64,000 bases of DNA, taken from the NCBI GenBank assembly GCA_022710935.1, contig JAKLFY010000022.1, forward strand, positions 1 through 64,000, written 5' to 3'. Below the pieces are notes generated by a model, which saw nothing but the letters and a program-made list of their open reading frames with translations, was not told the DNA's origin and made no database searches. This DNA is from Verrucomicrobiota bacterium (lineage in GTDB: Bacteria > Verrucomicrobiota > Verrucomicrobiia > Limisphaerales > J093). Of this stretch, positions 4,072 through 60,761 are shown one piece after another (within the stretch, counting starts at the first letter, position 1; each line of letters opens with the position of its first letter). The translations under genes and the position numbers were made by a program.

Positions 4072-4496
4072 ATCAGGTTCACCTGGAGCCCTCTGTCGTT
4101 CTCGACCGGCTCTTGCCGTCGTGGCAGGGGCGGCGCCGGAGCGCGGGCGCCGCAACTGTCAACCCCGCGCCCCTCACTCGAAGCGGCATCACCGGTTGAA
4201 CACCCCCAATCATCGGGCGACACCAGGCGCATCCGCTTGCCGCCAATTGTGAAAGACTTAGCATTATTTGCCCGCACGCCTCCGGACGCGCGCGGGGGCC
4301 GTGAACCGGCTTGTAGCCGCCGACGTGAGTCGGCGCTGATTCCCGTCTTTGACGGAGCGAGGTGGCGCGGACTCATCCCGCGATGCGGGACGGCTCCGAG
4401 GTTCATGGGCAGAATTGCTGCCGAGTGTCGCCCCCGAGTTGCATGGCGTCCGGGCAGCAAGTATGCTGCTGTGCGTTCGCAGGCTGAACAGAACTC
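4072..4496. other. Intergenic region between radical SAM/ubiA operon and hflX, containing a palindromic repeat
   Basis: Divergent gap. It holds repeat copy 1 of the loop-inverted family at about 4313-4400 (listed separately). No open frame with protein-like composition was seen. A promoter for the two divergent units must lie here, but none stands out. Confidence 0.5.
4313..4400 (+). repeat. Palindromic intergenic repeat, loop-inverted family, copy 1
   Basis: About 88 bases beginning GTAGCCGCCGACG and ending CGATGCGGGACGGCTCCGAG, with imperfect inverted arms GAGTCGGCGCTGA and GGCGCGGACTCAT around a central loop. The second copy, at 60659-60744 on the opposite strand, has the same outer sequence but the central loop (CTCGCTCCG...) in the reverse orientation. 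The ends also contain a perfect CCCGC-AT-GCGGG hairpin. Confidence 0.7.
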
Positions 4497-5786
4497 TTGA
4501 AAGCACTTTATTCGACGGCACGGGAGAAACGGACCGAGAGGGTCTTCCTCATCGGCGCGGAACTGAAGTCACGGCGGACTTGGGACGTGCGCGACTCGCT
4601 CGAAGAACTCGCCCAACTCGCCGACACCGCGGGCGGCGTCGTGGTCGGCGACTGCGTCCAGAAGCTCGAACGCCCGACCCCGGGCACGTTTATCGGTTCG
4701 GGCAAGGCAGAGGAACTGGCCGAACGCTGCCGTGCAGAACGCATCGACACGGTGGTCTTTGACGACGAGTTGTCACCCGCCCAGACGCGCAATCTCGAGC
4801 GGATCTTCGACTGCAAGGTGCTCGATCGCACGGATGTGATTCTCGACATCTTCGCCCGGCGCGCCCGGACCCGCGAAGGCAAGCTGCAGGTCGAGTTGGC
4901 TCAACTCGAACATCTCCTTCCCCGCCTGACCCGGTTCTGGACCCACCTCTCCCGGCAGAAAGGCGGCATCGGCATGCGCGGGGGTGAAGGCGAGAGCCAA
5001 CTCGAGACGGATCGACGCAAGGTCCAGGAGCGAATTGACCGGCTCAAGGCCGACCTCGAATCCGTGCGGCGTCAGCGCACGACACAACGGCAAGGCCGAC
5101 AACGCAGCCAATGGCCCCTGGCCTCGATCGTCGGATACACCAATGCCGGCAAATCCACCCTTTTCAATGCCCTCACCGGCGCCGAAGTTCTCGAGGAAGA
5201 CAAGCTCTTCGCCACGCTCGACCCCACCACGCGCCGTCTCCGCCTGCCGACCAATCAAAGCGTGCTCGTGTCCGACACCGTCGGCTTCATCCGCAAACTC
5301 CCTCATCGCCTGGTCGAGGCTTTCAAGGCGACACTTGAAGAAGTCGTCAACGCCGACCTTCTGCTCCACGTCATCGACATCAGTCATCCCCAGGTCGAGG
5401 CCCAAATCCGGGCCGTCACCGACGTCCTCGCCGAGATCGGGGCGGGTGCCAAACCGGTCCTGCTCGTGTTCAATAAGATCGATTGTGTCGACGACGGCGC
5501 CGCGGTCTCGGGTTGGATCGATCGATTCCCCCAGGCGGTTGCCATCTCCGCAAGGACCGGCGCCGGATTTGATGCCCTCTGGGCCGAACTCAGCACCCGG
5601 CTGCGCCCGGTCCGCGATTACCTCGAACTCGAGATCCCGCACGCCGAGGCCGGCGTCCTGTCCCGTCTGCACGCCGTGGGACAGGTCATCGAGCGCAATT
5701 ACGAAGACCATGTGGCGCGGATCAAAGCGCGCATCCCACCCCACTTGCGGGCCGAATTCGCCCCGTTCATCGTCGCCGACCTTTAG
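4497..5786 (+). CDS. hflX: GTPase HflX
   Basis: A 429-residue HflX-family ribosome-splitting GTPase. The N-terminal HflX domain (1-190) includes 'GTFIGSGKAEEL' and the diagnostic glycine-rich 'GGIGMRGGEGESQLE' segment followed by a coiled linker. The G domain has P-loop GYTNAGKST (213-221), G3 DTVGF (260-264) and G4 NKID (326-329). The C-terminal ~60 residues complete the fold. HflX rescues stalled or dormant ribosomes, especially after heat stress. The best start is a TTG at 4497; no ATG or GTG lies close upstream in frame. The gene converges on the ACT-domain gene with a 74-bp repeat in between. No hfq neighbour is present, unlike in Proteobacteria. Confidence 0.93.
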   Translation: MKALYSTAREKRTERVFLIGAELKSRRTWDVRDSLEELAQLADTAGGVVVGDCVQKLERPTPGTFIGSGKAEELAERCRAERIDTVVFDDELSPAQTRNLERIFDCKVLDRTDVILDIFARRARTREGKLQVELAQLEHLLPRLTRFWTHLSRQKGGIGMRGGEGESQLETDRRKVQERIDRLKADLESVRRQRTTQRQGRQRSQWPLASIVGYTNAGKSTLFNALTGAEVLEEDKLFATLDPTTRRLRLPTNQSVLVSDTVGFIRKLPHRLVEAFKATLEEVVNADLLLHVIDISHPQVEAQIRAVTDVLAEIGAGAKPVLLVFNKIDCVDDGAAVSGWIDRFPQAVAISARTGAGFDALWAELSTRLRPVRDYLELEIPHAEAGVLSRLHAVGQVIERNYEDHVARIKARIPPHLRAEFAPFIVADL

Positions 5787-5963
5787 CGAGGCTTCGTCTC
5801 TGACCAAGGAGGCGTGTGAACGAATCGTGGCCGCTGGGTGGCACCCGCGATCACCGGCACCCGACGCCTCGCCAAGTGGCGCCGCTGCGCGGCGCAAGAA
5901 CTTGACCCATTTGGTACAGATTCCACAAAGGGAGTCGCTCTAGCCTGGCGCGGTTTTGCTTTT

Positions 5964-6037
5964 CTAGCCTGCATAGCAGTCCTCGTGCGAGGTCTGACCG
6001 CCCTGTGCACCGTCGGGGTTTGAACCATGCGGGCTAG
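5964..6037 (+). repeat. 74-bp palindrome-ended repeat, copy 1 (between convergent hflX and ACT gene)
   Basis: The repeat starts CTAGCCTGCAT and ends ATGCGGGCTAG; the ends can pair over 11 bases with one G-T wobble. The interior shares 'AGCAGTCCT' and 'TGCGA-GTCT' with copies at 8244-8317 and 46129-46202. The reverse-strand ACT gene stops with the TAG inside the right end (6036-6034). A 15-base 'GGCGCGGTTTTGCTT'-type sequence precedes it, as in copy 2. Position and structure suggest a bidirectional terminator. Confidence 0.8.
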
Positions 6038-6465
6038 AGCCGCAGCGTCTCCGCCTGGCTCAGGAGGCGCAACGGAACAGACTCGAGCGCCTGACGCGCC
6101 CGCTCCAGTTCCTTGACTTCAATCAGGAGCACGGCCCGGCCGTTCGCGACGAAGCCGGACGCATTCTCAATGTTGATCCGTCTTCGCGAGAGGGCGTCGG
6201 CCACATCGAGCAGCCCGCCTGGCTTGTCGTCGACTTCGATCGCAAGCACCTCGACGCGCGAGACGGGGAGGCCGTCCTCCTTGAGCTTGCGATAGGCAAG
6301 GTCGGTGTTGTCCACCAGCAGCTTCACGACCCCGAAGGCGTCGCTGCTCGCAATGATGACCCACCGTATGTTGATCCCGGCATCGGCGAGTATGCGGGTT
6401 ACGTGCGCCAGTTGGCCCGTGCGATTCTCGGCAAAGATCGCCAGCAGAGTGACATTGCTGCTCAT
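6034..6465 (-). CDS. Tandem ACT-domain regulatory protein
   Basis: About 143 residues from the ATG at 6465, made of two ACT domains: one at 4-68 (LLAIFAENRTGQLAHVTRIL) and one at 72-137 (VLAIEVDDKPGGLLDVADAL). No catalytic domain is attached. The pattern matches stand-alone double-ACT proteins that bind small ligands, often amino acids, and are frequently found near acetolactate synthase or aminotransferase genes; no such neighbour is present here. An alternative TTG start lies two codons upstream. The stop codon is supplied by the terminal TAG of a 74-bp palindromic repeat. Confidence 0.85.
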   Translation of the reverse strand: MSSNVTLLAIFAENRTGQLAHVTRILADAGINIRWVIIASSDAFGVVKLLVDNTDLAYRKLKEDGLPVSRVEVLAIEVDDKPGGLLDVADALSRRRINIENASGFVANGRAVLLIEVKELERARQALESVPLRLLSQAETLRL

Positions 6466-7570
6466 AAACAATGCGCGGTTGGGGTGTGTGATCGTGTTGA
6501 TCGCAGTTTAGCCCGTCGCCCCAGCCTGCGTCCACCCGATTCCTTCCTCGCGCCCGCACCTCAAGGCCTGCCAGCCTCCCCCCGATCATCGGCTTAGCTG
6601 TTTGGGAACGACTGGGATTCACCACGAAGAACACGAAGAAATGGTGCCGAGCGAGCCCAATTGCTGTTCTATAGACAATAGCCGAAGCGCCCATTCTGCC
6701 GCGTCGCTCGCCTTCGTGCTATTATGCCCCGGAATCTGCCGGAGCCGGCGACGAATCTCGGAGGGCCGAGTTCCACGAGGCCCTGTCTGGGAATGGCGCA
6801 GTCACCAATCCAGGGACTCTCCCGCCGCCGCGCATACGCGTCAACCTAAGCAAAGCCGCCGAGTGGCTTCTCGGAGCAACGCTGTCGAGGGTGTCTAACT
6901 CCTTGGGCCGGTGTTCGTTGTGGCGTTCGCCTCTGATCAGTTCGGCTCCGAGGTCGCGAAGCGTCTGGAGTGCGGCGGTTGACCGCCGCTTTCCGAGGAC
7001 CGTCCTCCGTACGTTCCCATTCCAAAGCGGTGCTGAGGCACACGCACTCTCCCGCAGCCGCGGGACTCCGCGCTATCGAACACGCTCGTGCCCGGGCAGC
7101 TTCCGTGCAAGGTCCGCATTTTAGCCGACCTAAGGGTCTGTGCAAAAATTAATTCCGATTTTGCTGGAGGGGATTTGGCTCGCTGGCGAGGCGCGACGAA
7201 GGAGCATAGCCTTGACCTCTGTGACTGAGGAGCAACAAAGCCAGCGAGCCAAAGCCCCCCAGCCCTGCGGGGCGGGGCGGCACCGGGCCATCTGCGTCGT
7301 TCCTCGGTCGGTCGAGTATCTCAGCGGATACACTCCTTCCCTCGGGCCTCGCATCTGGCCCGGTGGCGCTCCCGCCAAAACCGGAAGTAATTTTTGCGCA
7401 GACCCTAAGGTTGACGCGCATGCGCCGCCGCGGGATCGTGCCTCGGAGTTTTGGTAGCGGCTCAGCCGCTCTGTGGCCTTCGTGACTTCGTGGTGAGTTT
7501 AGGCGAGGATTTGGGCCTCCCCGGCGCTTGACTTCTCCGGCCGGCGGATCAATCCTCGCGCCCAAGCACC
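6466..7570. other. 1.1-kb non-coding region with nested inverted repeats
   Basis: No convincing gene. The region is bracketed by inverted copies of a CACCACGAAG-type sequence (about 6616-6638 and 7469-7496), then by inverted copies of CGCATACGCGTCAACCTAAG (about 6833-6853, with its counterpart at 7405-7430), and contains the inverted-repeat element at 7129-7410. A perfect hairpin GCGGCGGT-TG-ACCGCCGC lies near 6973-6990. The gap separates two divergent genes, so their promoters must be here too. Confidence 0.5.
7129..7410. mobile_element. MITE/REP-like element with ~40-bp terminal inverted repeats
   Basis: The left end reads TAAGGGTCTGTGCAAAAATT and continues about 25 bases. The right end, read in reverse complement, gives TTAGGGTCTGCGCAAAAATT with only a few mismatches over about 40 bases. 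Inside are two further hairpins: TTTGGCTCGCTGG (7174-7186) with its perfect complement at 7241-7253, and CACCGGGCCATCTGCG (7281-7296) with a near-perfect complement at 7350-7365. About 280 bases and no transposase, so a non-autonomous element is the likely reading. Only one copy is in the window. Confidence 0.6.
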
Positions 7571-8078: not shown

Positions 8079-8125
8079 TAGCCCGGGTATTTCATAAGGC
8101 TTCGCGGAGTCTCATATCCGGGCTG
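8079..8125. repeat. CCCGG-ended hairpin repeat, family 2 copy 1
   Basis: AGCCCGGGTAT and ATATCCGGGCT form an 11-base stem with one wobble around the loop TTCATAAGGCTTCGCGGAGT. Related copies are at 41478-41527 and 60287-60332; all three lie in convergent gaps. Just downstream, 'GGCAAAACCGCGCC' is the reverse complement of the sequence preceding the 74-bp repeat at 8244, so a long stem-loop spanning 8127-8240 is also possible. Confidence 0.6.
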
Positions 8126-8243
8126 TGGCAAAACCGCGCCCGGAAAGGGAACCAAGAGCCTCCTCTCGGTTCAGAAGGGGTTCTGCCATAGGAGCAGTGT
8201 GTTGCATTTCTCCAGCTTTCGGACCCGGCGCGGTTTTGCTTCC

Positions 8244-8317
8244 CTAACCCGCATAGCAGTCCTCTTGCGAAGTCTGACTGCCATGTGCACAGACGCGCTA
8301 AGAAATATGCGGGTTAG
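8244..8317 (+). repeat. 74-bp palindrome-ended repeat, copy 2 (between convergent CBS and permease genes)
   Basis: Ends CTAACCCGCAT and ATGCGGGTTAG are perfectly complementary over 11 bases. Compared with copies 1 and 3, the fourth stem pair is A-T instead of G-C, a compensatory change. The stop TAA of the reverse-strand permease gene (8316-8314) lies inside the right end. Same length as copies 1 and 3. Confidence 0.82.
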
Positions 8318-10131
8318 CCGTGGATGACCAACTGAATGTTCTCGGGCAGGTTCCGCGCAACCTCAGTCACCACATTCCCCTTGAGCAACTGGACCAACCG
8401 GCGTCTCTGCGGGGAACCAAGCATCAGAATGTCCACGCCCAGCGTGGCCGCCAGATCCAGAATGGAATTGGCCGGATCGTCGCTGACCGCGTAGAGGGGA
8501 ACCACCTGAACGTTGTGGCGAGCCCCGAGGTGCAGCATCGAGCTCATGATCGCGGCGGCCGCCGGATCGTCCTGCCAGCGGGGGCGCTCGGTGGTTTGGA
8601 GCAGGCCGGGCATCGCCACGGCCAACTCCTTGACGTAAAGCACATAGAGCGCCCCTTGACGCAACCGCGCCTCCTCGAGGGCGAACCGGAGCACCGGGGT
8701 GAGCCCGCGCGCGGCAACCAGGATAGTCTGTCCCGTCTCGAGCTGAAGCTCGAACTCAGGCGCGGTCTCGGGCGCGACTCGGGCGGCGATCTCCCGCCGC
8801 ACCGTCACCGTCCGCAGCCCGGCCCGCCGCTGCGTGATGGTCCGAAGGCTCAGGCCTAGGCCCAAGAGGCAGATGGCGAAGAAGAGGGCGCCGTGATTCA
8901 CCTTCGCAATGGTGATCTCGACGGCGAACAGAACGAGGAAGGTCGCCCCCATGATCGCCCGTTCGTACCAAGCCAGGCGGAGCGCGCGATTGAATGTGCA
9001 CGAGCCCAGATTCACCGTGATCGCCCCCACCACGCCGATGGCATAGAGATTGGCAAGCGATTCAATGTCGGCCCCGGTGACCAGAACGATCAGGATTGGC
9101 AGCAATGTCGCCATTGCCCACGGCCACCACGGCACGCCGTAGGCGTTCAACCGGACAAAGAAACGCGGCATCTCGCCGTCGCGCGCCAGCATGTAGACGA
9201 GGCCAATCTGGGCAGCGATCGCCGTGTTCACCGCGCTCAAGAGCAGCAGGCCCACCACAAGACCCACGACCGCGCCGATCGCCTTCCCGACCGCCGCATT
9301 GAACATCAGCGTCCCGTACTCCTGCCCGAGAAACCGCATCATGTAATCGCGATGTGCAACGGGGTCGGGCGCGTGCGAGCCGGACAACGAAAGCATCGCC
9401 CAGCCCAGCAGGGCCGTTCCCAGCACAACCTCGGCCGCGACCGGCAGGATGGCTTTGCGGGCCGTTTTGGACACGCACGGCTTGTCCATCGTGGCGCCCG
9501 GGTCGAGCTTCATCACACCGGTCAGGTTGGCGATCGCCTCGACACCGCTCAGCGCCAGAATCGTCGCGACAAAGAACTGCCAGTTGCGGGCGATCCCCCC
9601 ACTGGGCGGTTCGAGGTGCGCCGTGTTGAGATGGGGCAGGCTCAGCAGGATCAGCGCAACCACCACCACAACCATCGGAACCATCAGCCCCACAGCGAGG
9701 CTGCCGGTATGTTTCGGGCCGAAGAAGTTGATCCCGCCGACAATCAGGATGACCAGGACCGTCGCCGCCGCGACGTGCCCCTTCGAGACCCCGAAATAGT
9801 GCATCGCCGAGTTGCAGCTCAACGCGGCGGTGACCAGGAAATTGGCGACCAGCAGCAGGGCGCCAATCACCGCCAGCAGTCGGCTCTGATCCCGCGCGGC
9901 TGAATACACGCCGCCTCCGTCCGGGAAATGGCGGCAGACAAGGATGTAGTTGTATCCCACCAGCGCAGTCAGCACGCACACCGCGCCAATGATGGGCAGC
10001 GAGGCATGGCCGGCGGCAGCGAAGGCCAGGCCGATGACGTAGGCCTTGCTCGTGCCCCAGTCCCCGTAAAGCAGGGCCGCCGCGCGCTTCCAATCGAGGT
10101 TCCGCGGGCGGTGGATGGGTTGGCTATCCAT
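8314..10131 (-). CDS. APC-superfamily amino acid permease with C-terminal UspA-like domain
   Basis: 605 residues. Residues 1-430 form an APC-type transporter with about 12 transmembrane helices, including the early 'WGTSKAYVIGLAF' helix and 'ILALSGVEAIANLTGVMKL'. Residues 450-605 are a soluble universal-stress-protein-like domain ending in a nucleotide-loop-like pattern (LGSPQRRRLVQLLKGN-VVTEVARNLP). This fusion is known in bacterial APC transporters, where the tail probably senses nucleotide or regulates transport. The substrate is likely an amino acid or other small amine and cannot be fixed. The ATG at 10131 gives a short basic cytoplasmic start (RPRNLDWKRA). Its TAA stop is part of the 74-bp repeat. 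Confidence 0.85.
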   Translation of the reverse strand: MDSQPIHRPRNLDWKRAAALLYGDWGTSKAYVIGLAFAAAGHASLPIIGAVCVLTALVGYNYILVCRHFPDGGGVYSAARDQSRLLAVIGALLLVANFLVTAALSCNSAMHYFGVSKGHVAAATVLVILIVGGINFFGPKHTGSLAVGLMVPMVVVVVALILLSLPHLNTAHLEPPSGGIARNWQFFVATILALSGVEAIANLTGVMKLDPGATMDKPCVSKTARKAILPVAAEVVLGTALLGWAMLSLSGSHAPDPVAHRDYMMRFLGQEYGTLMFNAAVGKAIGAVVGLVVGLLLLSAVNTAIAAQIGLVYMLARDGEMPRFFVRLNAYGVPWWPWAMATLLPILIVLVTGADIESLANLYAIGVVGAITVNLGSCTFNRALRLAWYERAIMGATFLVLFAVEITIAKVNHGALFFAICLLGLGLSLRTITQRRAGLRTVTVRREIAARVAPETAPEFELQLETGQTILVAARGLTPVLRFALEEARLRQGALYVLYVKELAVAMPGLLQTTERPRWQDDPAAAAIMSSMLHLGARHNVQVVPLYAVSDDPANSILDLAATLGVDILMLGSPQRRRLVQLLKGNVVTEVARNLPENIQLVIHG

Positions 10132-10155: not shown

Positions 10156-10230
10156 TGGTGCCAGAGGAGGGAATTGAACCCCCGACCAAGGGCTTATGAG
10201 TCCCCTGCTCTACCGCTGAGCTACTCTGGC
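10156..10230 (-). tRNA. tRNA-Met (anticodon CAU)
   Basis: Read on the reverse strand it folds as a full cloverleaf: acceptor GCCAGAG/CTCTGGC (7 bp), D arm GCTC/GAGC, anticodon arm with loop CTCATAA, T arm GGGGG/CCCTC with loop TTCAATT, discriminator A and an encoded CCA. The anticodon is CAU. The anticodon stem begins with a G-U and has an A·G opposition at its loop end (31-39). Elongator Met is the likely identity, but a lysidine-modified tRNA-Ile2 cannot be excluded from sequence alone. Confidence 0.9.
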
Positions 10231-41477: not shown

Positions 41478-41527
41478 CCTGGCCCGGTTATTCCATACGC
41501 TCCGGGAGTAACCGTAACCGGGCCAGG
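41478..41527. terminator. Perfect 13-bp stem hairpin between convergent GH2 and isomerase-like genes (family 2 copy 2)
   Basis: CCTGGCCCGGTTA at 41478-41490 pairs perfectly with TAACCGGGCCAGG at 41515-41527. The loop resembles that of the repeat at 8079-8125 (TTCCATA...CGGGAGT). It lies 40 bases after the GH2 stop and 21 bases from the stop of the opposite gene, a likely bidirectional terminator. Confidence 0.65.
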
Positions 41528-43027: not shown

Positions 43028-43385
43028 AGGGCTTGTGTGTTGCAGTGGTTCGCAGTTGTGGCTATGCCGCAATGGTACGGTGCCCCGGCCTGCCTCGGCA
43101 AGCGCTTTGCCAGGAATTTGAGCGCTCTCGGTGCATCTGGTTGTTGTCGGTGTTCTGTCGCCCGGTGAGGGCACCGGGCCTTCACCGGATCGAGACTCCC
43201 GGTGTAGGCCGCGTGCCCCCACGCGGCGCATACTCGATTCCCACCGACAACCTCCAGATGCACGGCCGCGCTTTCACGCCCGGCAGACCGCAGACTGACT
43301 GTCGGGTGGCCGGGGATGGGAGATGGGGGGGGGCACGGTGGAAGGAAATTGTTGCCGCTGTTGATGCGGCGCGTTACAGGTGAGC
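43028..43385. other. Divergent intergenic region with the covarying double-hairpin repeat (copy A)
   Basis: Separates the isomerase-like gene and the glycosidase-like gene. It contains the repeat at 43160-43228 (separate entry), then a G-rich stretch GATGGGGGGGGGCACGG near 43318. Promoters for both genes should lie here; none is distinct. Confidence 0.45.
43160..43228. repeat. Two-hairpin covarying repeat, copy A
   Basis: Hairpin 1 CCCGGTG-AGGG-CACCGGG (43161-43178) and hairpin 3 GCCGCGTG-CCCC-CACGCGGC (43208-43227), joined by a segment that can form a further stem (GGCCT...AGGCC). Copy B at 48082-48152 has the same loops but different, fully compensated stems. Both copies lie between divergent genes. 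Confidence 0.75.
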
Positions 43386-46128: not shown

Positions 46129-46202
46129 CTGGCCCGCATGTTTCACACTCGGTCCGTGCGCATGGCGATGAGACTTCGCAAGAGGAATGCTGTGCGGGCT
46201 AG
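46129..46202 (-). repeat. 74-bp palindrome-ended repeat, copy 3 (between convergent glycosidase-like and zincin genes)
   Basis: Ends CTGGCCCGCAT and GTGCGGGCTAG pair over 11 bases with two G-T wobbles. Read on the reverse strand its interior matches copy 2 closely (TTCCTCTTGCGAAGTCT). It is inserted in the opposite orientation to copies 1 and 2, yet its TAG end (46201-46199) is still the stop codon of the reverse-strand zincin gene. Confidence 0.8.
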
Positions 46203-47977
46203 TTCGACTGGCGGGGCTGGTAGCGCCAATCCACTTTGTCCTGATAGGCCATGGTTTCATGGACGAGCGCGAAGAGGCCGGGATCGTAGGTGGCGAGTCG
46301 TTCGCGCGTGTTCACGGGCGTCGGGCTGCCCTGCGGCGCTGAATGCGGCCCGGACGCGTCGAAATAGGCGAGCACGCCGGCGCACCAGTACGCGAACCTG
46401 TCCCGCGCCGCCTGGGTGCCCGCCCACTTGACCGCGGCCCTGGCCTGGTTGAAGCGTGCCGTGACGGCCTGGTCGAATTCCACATCCAAGCGTTTCACGC
46501 GCAGTTCGTACTGTTGGTTGCCGCGGTAATCGGGAATCACGGGACGCAAGCCTGCGACTCTGTAGGCGGCCTCGGCCAGAACCGCGATGACCGGGCTGCC
46601 CGCGGACCAGGGTGACGCCGCGTCGGCCAACACATCTTCCTGTGCCACGACGAGCAGGTTCAGATCCGGATTGCAGGTCGGCCCGCGCGACGCGCCGTCC
46701 GTCGACGGCTTTTCGGACGCCCGCTTCCATTCCGGCAGATCGGCCAGTTGCTCGCCCGGCCCGAGCACGACCAGTTTGAAGCCCTGGTTGATCAAGGCTT
46801 TGAGGATGTCGTGGCGGTAGGCGAACATCCGGCGGATGGTGTCGTTGGCGTGCAGCAGGGCGTCGTCGCTCGCTCCCCGTCCCACGACGGTGAACTCGCG
46901 CGCCCAGGTGAACTTCGTGTACCAGGGGTCGACGTCCTTGAACTTGTCGATGCGCGGCGGCGCGGAGACCATCGGCAGCTTCTGCAGCCAGGTGTAACGC
47001 CAGTCGCGGTCGGGAGCCGATTTGAACACCTCCTGGCACAGGGCGAATCCGGCGGGATCGTGGGCCAGCAATTGGGCGCGGTTGCCGACGGGGCCGTGGT
47101 TCCAATTGTTGACCCGGTTGCAGTCGAAGAAGGCCTGCGCAATCTCCGCCCAGTATTCGGCGGGATTGCCGGCTGCGTAGGTCTGCTCATAGAGCTTCCT
47201 GTCGATGGCGTTGCGGTAGGCCGCCATGCGGCTCTCCTGCCAGCCCGGATCGGTCCGGCCCAGGATGTCGTCGATCGTGTGGCAGAATTCATGCACGGCA
47301 ATGCTCTCGTCGTCGTAGCGGTCAATGGGCAGGCAGAGGAGGTTCTCCTCGCCGAAACTCGTCGGGTTGCCGCCTGTGCCTCGAACGCGCTCGTTTTGAA
47401 ACTCGGGATTGGGATGATGCCGGTATTCGGGCATGTCCGTGTAGACCTGGTTCTTGCCGATGACGATCAGGTAGATTTGGTTGGTGACCATGGCGGCCAG
47501 AATGTCGGGGCGCCCGGCCAGCATGCCGGTGACGATCTGGTAGGTTCGCTGCAACGCCAGATCCGCCACATCCGCATGCGCGGCGACCGGCAGCCCTGCC
47601 ACGTCGATGTGCTTCGAGTAAAACGTCCGGTAGATGGCCAACTCGTCCGCGACGCGGGATTGCGCGCTCTCGGCAGCGCTCGCCGCCTCTGGCGGAGCCG
47701 CTTCGCCTGCTCCACGGCGCATGCGTCCGCGGCGGGCATCGGCCCGGGCGATGCGGTTGGACACCATCTGAAAGAAGGACTCCGGGGGCGGCGTCACTCG
47801 GGGGGCGTCAATTGTGACGTCCGGCGGTTCGAGTGCGGGCCGCGGGGCGATGGATTGGGCGTGGAGACAGGAGCCAGCTCCGACCAATCCGATGGCGATC
47901 GGGACAAGGCACGACACGGAACGTAGCCTGGCACCGCGGAGAAGGCTCGAGCGAAAGGTCAGGTTGAACGTGCGCAT
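46199..47977 (-). CDS. Secreted zinc metallopeptidase-like protein with duplicated domain
   Basis: About 592 residues from the ATG at 47977 (MRTFNLTF); an 83-codon upstream extension is unlikely. Signal peptide about 15-42. Domain 1 (130-330) carries the zincin motif HEFCH (229-233) in 'ESIAVHEFCHTIDDIL' and a downstream 'EYWAEIAQAFFDCNR', whose glutamate may be the third ligand. Domain 2 (about 370-590) repeats the layout: 'RRMFAYRHDILKALINQGFK' mirrors 'GMLAGRPDILAAMVTNQIYL', and 'DPGLFALVHETMAYQDKVDW' mirrors 'DPAGFALCQEVFKSAPDRDW'. Its equivalent helix lacks HExxH. So one catalytic and one degenerate copy. Family assignment uncertain. It closes the degradative cluster; its stop lies in a 74-bp repeat. 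Confidence 0.75.
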   Translation of the reverse strand: MRTFNLTFRSSLLRGARLRSVSCLVPIAIGLVGAGSCLHAQSIAPRPALEPPDVTIDAPRVTPPPESFFQMVSNRIARADARRGRMRRGAGEAAPPEAASAAESAQSRVADELAIYRTFYSKHIDVAGLPVAAHADVADLALQRTYQIVTGMLAGRPDILAAMVTNQIYLIVIGKNQVYTDMPEYRHHPNPEFQNERVRGTGGNPTSFGEENLLCLPIDRYDDESIAVHEFCHTIDDILGRTDPGWQESRMAAYRNAIDRKLYEQTYAAGNPAEYWAEIAQAFFDCNRVNNWNHGPVGNRAQLLAHDPAGFALCQEVFKSAPDRDWRYTWLQKLPMVSAPPRIDKFKDVDPWYTKFTWAREFTVVGRGASDDALLHANDTIRRMFAYRHDILKALINQGFKLVVLGPGEQLADLPEWKRASEKPSTDGASRGPTCNPDLNLLVVAQEDVLADAASPWSAGSPVIAVLAEAAYRVAGLRPVIPDYRGNQQYELRVKRLDVEFDQAVTARFNQARAAVKWAGTQAARDRFAYWCAGVLAYFDASGPHSAPQGSPTPVNTRERLATYDPGLFALVHETMAYQDKVDWRYQPRQSN

Positions 47978-48081
47978 GGGCCGACAATAGAAGCCGGCCC
48001 CTCGGGCGCCAGCAAGAACCGGCTTCAGCAGGAGACGGGTCGCGCCGGCAGCAGTTCTCACTTTGCGTGCCGGGCCTTGAG

Positions 48082-48152
48082 ACCGGGTGAGGGCACCCGG
48101 CCTACAGCATCGAAGATTACAGCGGTTGCAGGCCGGGTCCCCCGACCCGGCG
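48082..48152. repeat. Two-hairpin covarying repeat, copy B
   Basis: Hairpin 1 CCGGGTG-AGGG-CACCCGG (48083-48100) and hairpin 3 GCCGGGTC-CCCC-GACCCGGC (48132-48151). Same loop sequences as copy A, with compensated stem differences. Lies in the divergent gap between the zincin gene and the helicase gene. Confidence 0.75.
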
Positions 48153-48258
48153 CTCTGAGCGTTCTTAGAGCCACAATTGCTGGCGCGCCGGTGCATCCAC
48201 GCCGCGTCGCCAGGAATGGCCTTCATCCACCCGAGCGCGGCCGTTGCGCAAAAAGGGT

Positions 48259-58681: not shown

Positions 58682-60289
58682 ATGCCAGAGATCCTGCTCG
58701 CCACACTGAACGCGAAGTACATCCACTCCGCGTTGGGCCTGCGCTGCCTGATGGCCAATCTTGGCCCCCTGCGGGAGCGGGCGGCAATGCTTGAATTCGA
58801 CCTGGCCCAGCGTCCACTCGAGGTCGTCGAGCAGATGCTCGCCGTCAGCCCTCGGATTGTCGGCCTTGGGGTCTACATTTGGAACGTCGCTCAAATCACC
58901 GAGGTGGTTGCGCTCCTGAAACGCCTGCGCCCCGGCATGGTGATCGTGCTGGGAGGGCCGGAAGTGATCTGCGAAACCGATCTGCCGCCCGTTGCCGGAC
59001 TGGCCGACTACGTCATCGCAGGCGAAGCGGACCTCGAATTCGCCGCATTGTGCCAGGCCATTCTGGCCACACCGCCGCCCGCGGGAGGAGCCGATGCGGA
59101 CGGCCCTTCCTCGGCGTCGGAGCGCCCCAGCCAAAGTCCCGGGATGGCGCGGAGGCCGAGGGTCATCCGCGCCGGGCACGCCAGGCTCGGCGACGTGGCC
59201 CTGCCTTATGAGTTCTACACCGACGCCGACATCGCGCATCGGATCGTGTATGTCGAGGCGTCGCGCGGCTGTCCGTTCGGCTGCGAGTTCTGTCTCTCGT
59301 CGATCGAGGCCTCGGTCCGGCAGTTTGATTTAAGCCTGTTTCTCCGAGCCATGGAGCAGCTTCTCGAGAGGGGCGTGCGGCACTTCAAGTTTGTGGATCG
59401 GACGTTCAACTTGAACATCGAGGTCTGCGGGCGGGTTCTCGAGTTCTTTCTGGCGCGCCTCTGCGACGGGCTCTTCCTCCATTTCGAGATGGTGCCCGAT
59501 CGTCTGCCGGTCGAACTGCGCGAGGTCCTGGCCCGCTTTCCCCCCGGGACATTGCAGATCGAACTCGGGATCCAGACCTTCAACGACGAAGTCGCCCGCC
59601 GGATCAACCGACGGCAGGACTGCGCGCAGATCGCCGAGAACCTCCGGTTCCTGCGTCAGGAGACTCGGGCGCATCTGCACACGGACCTGATCATCGGCCT
59701 GCCCGGCGAACGCATCGACAGCATCGCGGACGGATTCGATCGACTGGTCGCGCTCGACGCGCACGAAATCCAGATGGGCATCCTCAAAAGACTCCGCGGC
59801 GTCCGCATCATCCGGCACGACGACGCGTGGGGCATGGTTTACTCCCCGCTGCCGCCTTACGAGTTGATCGAGAGCAGGACGCTCGATTTCCCTACCCTCC
59901 AGCGCCTCCGACGATTCGCGCGGTACTGGGACCTGATCGGCAACAGTGGAAACTTCGTGGAGACCACGCTGCTGCTCCGGGCCAAGGGCGGGGGATCGCC
60001 TTTTGCAGGTTTCCTGCGCCTCAGCGATTGGCTTTTTGCGCAGACGGGCCGCCAGCACGCGATCGCTCTGCCGCGTCTGGCGGAGCTTGTTTTTGACTAC
60101 CTCACGCGCGTGCTGGAATGCGACCCGACGGTTGCGGCAGAGACGGTGCTCCGCGACTACCGCCGTTCGGGCCGTGCCGGGGATCTGGCTTTTCTGCGGG
60201 ATGACGCCGATCGTGACACCAAAGCCCATCGCGCCGCGGGCCCGAGGCGAAGCGATCGGCGTCAGGCGCGCCATCGCGCGGCGGGCTAG
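58682..60289 (+). CDS. B12-binding-domain radical SAM protein (DUF4080-type)
   Basis: About 535 residues from the ATG at 58682 (MPEILLATLNAKYIHSALGL). Residues 1-140 are a cobalamin-binding-like Rossmann domain ('RIVGLGVYIWNVAQITEVVA', 'VIVLGGPEV'), without the strict DxHxxG histidine. The radical SAM motif is 'RGCPFGCEFCLSS' (about 200), followed by 'FKFVDRTFNLN' and 'LQIELGIQTFNDEVARRINR'. A C-terminal DUF4080 region follows ('RFARYWDLIGNSGNFVETTL'). The methyltransferase or other reaction is not known for this family. The last ~25 residues are arginine-rich and end at a TAG that begins a family 2 hairpin repeat. Confidence 0.85.
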   Translation: MPEILLATLNAKYIHSALGLRCLMANLGPLRERAAMLEFDLAQRPLEVVEQMLAVSPRIVGLGVYIWNVAQITEVVALLKRLRPGMVIVLGGPEVICETDLPPVAGLADYVIAGEADLEFAALCQAILATPPPAGGADADGPSSASERPSQSPGMARRPRVIRAGHARLGDVALPYEFYTDADIAHRIVYVEASRGCPFGCEFCLSSIEASVRQFDLSLFLRAMEQLLERGVRHFKFVDRTFNLNIEVCGRVLEFFLARLCDGLFLHFEMVPDRLPVELREVLARFPPGTLQIELGIQTFNDEVARRINRRQDCAQIAENLRFLRQETRAHLHTDLIIGLPGERIDSIADGFDRLVALDAHEIQMGILKRLRGVRIIRHDDAWGMVYSPLPPYELIESRTLDFPTLQRLRRFARYWDLIGNSGNFVETTLLLRAKGGGSPFAGFLRLSDWLFAQTGRQHAIALPRLAELVFDYLTRVLECDPTVAAETVLRDYRRSGRAGDLAFLRDDADRDTKAHRAAGPRRSDRRQARHRAAG

Positions 60290-60332
60290 CCCGGGTCGAT
60301 GACAGGCTTCGCGCCAAACCTGATCCGGGCCA
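60287..60332. repeat. CCCGG-ended hairpin repeat, family 2 copy 3
   Basis: Begins with the TAG stop of the radical SAM gene: AGCCCGGGTC pairs with GATCCGGGCC around GGCTTCGCG. Similar to 8079-8125. Lies in a convergent gap. Confidence 0.55.
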
Positions 60333-60761
60333 GCGAGGCGCGCCTCAGACCAAATCCCAGTCCTCATAGTCATGATGAGTCCCTGTGCTTCTCCGCCCCT
60401 CTCTCCCGAGCGGCTCGACCGAGCTCGCCGAGGTCCTCGCTCCTTAGAATCCTTGGCCCCTGCAACGCAACACAGACACTTGACTTGTCTACAACACGTG
60501 ACACCGGTCAAGGATTCTAGCGTGTTGTTCTTTTGTGAACTGTTCGGTGAGCATGAGCCCGAAAACCGCAAGTGCTCGGAAAGCGGAGATCCCGTTCCAC
60601 GATTCATGGATCGCGTTGACCTTTAACAGTTGAGTGCGCACGAGGACTTTGAACCGATTCGGAGCCGTCCCGCATCGCGGGATGAGTCGGCGCTGACTCC
60701 TGCCTTTGCGGAGCGAGATGGCGCGGACTGACGTCCGCGGCTACGGAACGACGTCGTTCGA
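60333..60761. other. Convergent intergenic region with loop-inverted repeat copy 2
   Basis: No gene. It contains the repeat at 60659-60744 and a TTGACTTG-containing A/T-richer stretch near 60480 without a matching -10. Otherwise nothing recognisable. Confidence 0.45.
60659..60744 (-). repeat. Palindromic intergenic repeat, loop-inverted family, copy 2
   Basis: Reverse complement begins GTAGCCGCGGACG and ends CGATGCGGGACGGCTCCGAA, as copy 1 at 4313-4400, but the central loop (CTCGCTCCGCAAAGGC) is in the opposite orientation relative to the outer arms. Confidence 0.7.

Follow-up and report, generated by a model that had tools for sequence, protein, structure and literature searches.

GTAG-REPs are dispersed palindromes that lie mostly in convergent or unidirectional gaps and whose termini often give a TAG stop codon; they are abundant in Opitutus terrae, a member of the Verrucomicrobia (PMC3733652). 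That palindromic repeats give TAG stops has thus already been published. In enterobacteria, ERIC and RU-1 are small palindromic repeats with a terminal TA and TA duplication (PMC2759123). The RUP element of Streptococcus pneumoniae is a gene-less repeat of ~107 bp, present in more than 100 copies and with TA at the insertion site (PMC2229807). A preference for the TA in CTAG is stated for IS630 in the title of Tenzen and Ohtsubo 1991, as cited in PMC2170065, and TA is duplicated by ISY100 (PMC2170065). Here, we analyse a 74-bp palindromic repeat from a Verrucomicrobiota bacterium which, beyond what is described for GTAG-REPs, has a target that is defined and an end that regenerates the stop.

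Results

The stretch of DNA analysed, hereafter the window, comprises 64 kb of contig JAKLFY010000022.1 (assembly GCA_022710935.1, positions 1 to 64,000). As a sequence-only reading had described, it contains three copies of exactly 74 bases with complementary ends (SF1 copies 1 to 3), two on the + strand (5964-6037 and 8244-8317) and one in reverse orientation (46129-46202). Copy 1 is G-type and consists of TA (5965-5966), core (5967-6034) and TA (6035-6036). Copy 2 is A-type, with host C at 8244, TA at 8245-8246, core at 8247-8314, TA at 8315-8316 and host G at 8317. Copy 3 is again G-type, and its far TA (46130-46131) has decayed to TG. Each copy is flanked by convergent genes, that is, those for an HflX-type GTPase and an ACT-domain protein (copy 1), a CBS protein and an APC permease with Usp domain (copy 2), and a malectin-domain protein and a HExxH (zincin-like) protein (copy 3). 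In all three cases the stop codon of the reverse-strand gene occupies positions 2-4 of the element, counted inward from its right end (6036-6034, 8316-8314 and 46201-46199), with TAG for the ACT-domain protein gene (6034-6471, - strand), TAA for the permease gene (8314-10131, - strand) and TAG for the HExxH protein gene (46199-48226, - strand). The coincidence of element end and stop codon claimed for these genes is therefore exact, and the flipped copy 3 indeed still ends on a stop. As to the identity of the last protein as a zincin, the HEFCH motif is present, whereas no Pfam family matched. Each of the four CTAR stops in the window (6034, 8314, 46199 and 60287) is formed by the end of such an element, which may accordingly bear on stop-codon usage; at the 10 other TAR stops, neither SF1 nor type B is present.

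When a covariance model built from 28 copies was run on the 7.52 Mb draft genome, at least 147 matches were obtained, at least ~140 of them at E < 1e-3, and a query with the sequence of a single copy gave at least 40. With the same model, at least 97 copies were found in the congener Verrucomicrobia bacterium ADurb.Bin006 and at most two in each of the other 38 relatives; this MAG was also the only match among named genomes for a 22-base core. The motif CTARCCCGCAT occurs 190 times as compared to 11 times for the reversed control, and inverted ends of 11-12 bp were seen across 99-105 copies. Since some copies are bare 74-mers in unrelated flanks and those of loci L004, L006 and L007 are identical, the 74-mer is a dispersed mobile repeat. 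With its high copy number, its shortness and the lack of a transposase gene it has the properties of a miniature inverted-repeat transposable element (MITE).

Genes at the copies were called with our own gene caller, which gave a sensible result on the window. The flanks of 99 unique copies were convergent in 34, tandem in 47 and divergent in 7 cases; 5 copies were spanned and 6 lay at contig edges. The stop of a neighbouring gene coincided exactly with element positions 2-4, counted from either end, in 52 of these 99 copies, in 5 of them at both ends, and the same was true for 15 of 29 copies in 378 kb of the congener. The proposal that the element inserts at gene ends, with its own end forming the stop, is thus borne out genome-wide and in both orientations. 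The element ends do offer a TAA or TAG in one frame out of three, and if insertion near gene ends were random, such coincidences could in principle arise by a one-in-three frame chance. Yet, 57 gene ends are exact stops versus at most eight other ends or spans (p ~1e-19 against 1/3), and element-free orthologues end at the same codon, which leaves this explanation with a negligible probability. Convergent gaps hold 34 of the 88 classifiable copies versus 15.6 expected from gap counts and divergent gaps hold 7 versus 15.9, expectations that are biased because the sampled gaps were taken from regions around copies. Enrichment and depletion arise largely because a convergent gap has two stops and a divergent gap none. 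Hence, the placement between convergent genes seen for all three window copies is favoured in the genome, but not required.

For the detection of empty sites, the C-termini of element-ended genes were searched against the congener and the gene ends were then compared, which yielded about four to six clean sites from two draft genomes. Element-free orthologues mostly terminate at the same codon, TAG or TAA, and their proteins are not truncated; the compared genes include those for CorA, release factor 1 and a thioredoxin-like protein, which we take to have recognisable natural ends. Likewise, the congener orthologues of the ACT-domain protein gene (L172) and of the HExxH protein gene (L213) carry TAG at the same codon without an element. 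The idea that the element supplies the stop codon is therefore correct inasmuch as its end forms the stop, but at cleanly alignable sites a stop was already in place at this codon in the element-free congener. At the few clean pairs (L034, L068, L087 and L047), TA is single when the site is empty and double when it is filled. At L034, the empty site GGG-T-TA-GCGGG compares with the filled site GGG-C-TA[GCCCGCAT..ATGCGGGC]TA-GCGGG; the one TA of the empty site is common to both convergent genes, and when filled each gene has one element end. The gap between filled and empty site is exactly 2 at L068, and the A-type locus L047 reads TA[SF1]TA[type B]TA-ATCCC when filled versus TA-ATCCC when empty (empty site CTAATCCC). 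Three further loci (L014, L028 and L008) are consistent with a one-TA empty site given point changes.

A C precedes the TA at 48 of 52 occupied stops versus 24 of 98 unoccupied TAA/TAG stops (p 2e-16), and a G follows the far TA in 45 of 52 stop-end copies; the corresponding counts in the congener are 14/15 and 13/15. Thus, the target is CTAG with duplication of TA. The insertion sequence IS5 generates a 4-bp YTAR target duplication. Duplication in this manner is ruled out for the 74-mer, as A-type copies read CTAA...TTAG rather than CTAA...CTAA, the outcome of a longer duplication, and for the same reason the third stop base must be the element's own. In 94 of 105 copies, an A or G in this terminal position is matched by the complementary T or C at the opposite end; TA plus the terminal base is therefore a stop, and the terminal complementarity noted in the window is kept in other copies. 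In 462 kb sampled, unoccupied CTAG was found 21 times in genes, 28 times in intergenic regions and 13 times at stops, that is, genes largely avoid CTAG except at the stop. Copies at stops amount to 55% versus 32% expected from these counts, and selection or further target cues may thus add to stop placement.

The sequence-only reading had also seen in the repeat a combined stop codon and bidirectional terminator. A repeat held by selection at gene ends in this function, or as an mRNA-stabilising hairpin, would agree with the position of the copies, with the bias for convergent and against divergent gaps, and with a strong terminal stem, which is closed in the predicted fold of all three window copies (z -5.8 for 8244 (+)). 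However, a T-run is missing behind all 198 element ends, terminator scans at the three window copies gave no match, many orthologues lack the element, and in 9 copies common to both species a non-standard pair occurs in 17 of the 31 stem pairs that have changed. The terminator claim consequently finds no support, and retention by selection for any such function appears very improbable. Compensatory changes in the ends were confirmed as strong for stem pair 4-71, where they separate two lineages, and as weak for 3-72, but not for other pairs. Judged from these comparisons, the terminal complementarity reads as transposon inverted repeats in decay, not as a maintained terminator or RNA device; a weak effect of the element on RNA 3' ends may exist. 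More generally, location of a repeat at gene ends does not prove a terminator. A selected RNA structure was also considered and rejected: copy 1 could form a three-way junction, yet covariation is lacking in its inner hairpins, and copies shared by the two species have a decaying stem. A known RNA family was ruled out as well, as an Rfam 15 search of the window returned a tRNA at 10159-10230 as sole match and none at the 74-mers.

Twenty regions with the end sites but without the 74-mer interior contain mostly other elements with the same ends and different interiors, namely SF2 (GTTTCATGGAGTTGTGACCACGGCGAAGCCG), SF3 (TTTCAGGTGAAATGTCACGGTGACCGG) and type B. Most SF elements with other interiors likewise coincide with stop codons. 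The window further contains a type B element of 48 bp (60286-60333, + strand; CTAGCCCGGGT..ATCCGGGCCAG), whose TAG is the stop of a + strand gene ending at 60289, and a type B palindrome at 41480-41524 (unstranded; CCCGGTTATTCC..CCGTAACCGGG). Upstream of SF1 copy 2 lies a type B-like palindrome (8079-8127, + strand; TAGCCCGGGTA..TATCCGGGCTG), and a type A palindrome (8128-8243, unstranded; GGCAAAACCGCGCC..GGCGCGGTTTTGC) adjoins this copy, while half of a type A palindrome adjoins copy 1 at 5945-5963. A type E palindrome, TA[GAATCCTTGACC...GGTCAAGGATTC]TA, also adjoins 74-mer copies. A composite of 74-mer and type B joined at a common TA recurs at L004, L006, L010, L012, L014 and L022, as if the two were nested or had moved together. 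At 5784-5890, CGAGGCTTCG..GACCAAGGAGGCGTGTGAAC comes after the TAG with which the HflX-type gene ends; as this sequence is found behind a TAG stop of the congener (L207) too, it may be another repeat using stop codons. Other repeats with multiple copies, among them several palindromes, show no relation to the 74-mer and lie at 43129-43266, 48083-48158, 4289-4412 and 60613-60753 of the window. In one long open reading frame (L129:1486-4473) the first ATG is located inside an SF2-like element (CTAGCCCGCATGG), so that an element may here supply a start codon.

Comparison of the two species at individual stops revealed opposite element orientations at L051:3501-3574/L163 and L043:3501-3574/L214. 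Different families occupy the same stop at L040 and L083 (SF1 vs SF2), L141 (SF2 vs SF1), L084 (SF1 vs type B) and L052 (SF1 vs SF3). This reflects either repeated hits on the same sites or else exchange of the interior. At L005/L168, window 8244/L164 and L044/L149, an element-end TGA stop is paired with TCA at the opposite end; in the congener, SF1 copy 2 (L164) is present at the same stop but degenerate (TGA..TCA). At L005 and 8244 the two species differ on both sides, TAA..TTA having changed to TGA..TCA, and hairpin-templated correction could be the source of this change.

Discussion

Taken together, our data make it likely that the 74-mer is a non-autonomous, TA-duplicating element, i.e. 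a MITE, whose target is CTAG, often a stop codon that is rebuilt on landing. The element would consist of a core of ~68 bp, 5'-RCCCGCAT...ATGCGGGY-3', between duplicated TAs, with CTAG as the preferred target. CTAG is rare inside genes of this 65% GC genome and most insertions at such places would not persist, presumably owing to purifying selection, so that C-TAG at a stop would offer a frequent and safe target. As TA together with the terminal purine again gives TAG or TAA, the protein would remain unchanged upon insertion, and stop rebuilding would allow the element to spread without protein damage. An avoided tetranucleotide combined with a stop-restoring terminal base would thereby provide a simple and testable route by which a mobile element can reach many copies where genes are densely packed.

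As regards the mobiliser, DDE_3 is represented in the genome by only two truncated relics without matching ends, and no matching ends were present at 7 DDE_Tnp_1 and 12 Y1 loci; the DDE_3 and Y1 loci checked in the congener carried none of the repeats. As no autonomous partner with the same ends was found among these loci of the draft genomes, we infer the mobilising enzyme, which by analogy is probably an IS630-type transposase. An enzyme of this IS630/Tc1-mariner type would act in trans and may have been lost or not assembled. The main rival to the MITE reading invokes a RAYT (Y1) that moves a REP-like element and inserts it beside CTAR without target duplication, the far CTAR being the element's own. 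Y1 genes of RAYT size do exist in both species, GTAG-REPs supply TAG stops too and occur in Verrucomicrobia (PMC3733652), and the G-type empty sites fit a RAYT-like insertion equally well. We nevertheless regard this scenario as unlikely, given that these ends are lacking on either side of the Y1 genes, that the A-type site at L047 is better explained by TA duplication, and that the ends are truly inverted and do not form a tagged hairpin. No RAYT association was seen at the Y1 loci checked, the nearest case being one SF-like repeat ~900 bp from one Y1 gene. The 12 Y1 transposase-like genes have apparent congener counterparts (L116-L127; L241-L253), and several are RAYT-sized (~350 aa).

Beyond the TA-duplicating MITE itself, one may tentatively consider a guild of palindromic families with shared or parallel ends that docks at stops, in which the CTAG target and the terminal purine are co-adapted, sites are re-used and TAG is reset to TAA, although we see this as somewhat less probable than its absence. 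If true, insertion would always regenerate the stop, families and orientations in related species would re-use sites, and an element could reset stop-codon identity from TAG to TAA.

Among known systems, GTAG-REPs are hairpins of 20-40 bp in which one end bears an unpaired GTAG, and they are linked to RAYT genes (PMC3733652), whereas the present element is 74 bp long and has CTAR..YTAG paired at both ends, a doubled TA and no RAYT link; neither an unpaired GTAG on a 20-40 bp hairpin nor a repeat-flanked RAYT gene, as in GTAG-REPs/REPINs, was found. RUP shares its ends with its partner IS630-Spn1, while no partner was found here for the 74-mer, and stop-codon targeting is not mentioned for RUP in the available text of PMC2229807. 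ERIC and RU-1 are unrelated in sequence, and RU-1 can be read through, thereby extending a gene (PMC2759123), in contrast to the 74-mer, which rebuilds the stop. IS630 and ISY100 are autonomous and carry a transposase, and the 74-mer is linked to them by target only. That is, it shares with IS630/Tc1-mariner-like elements the TA target, which is duplicated, and the preference for CTAG.
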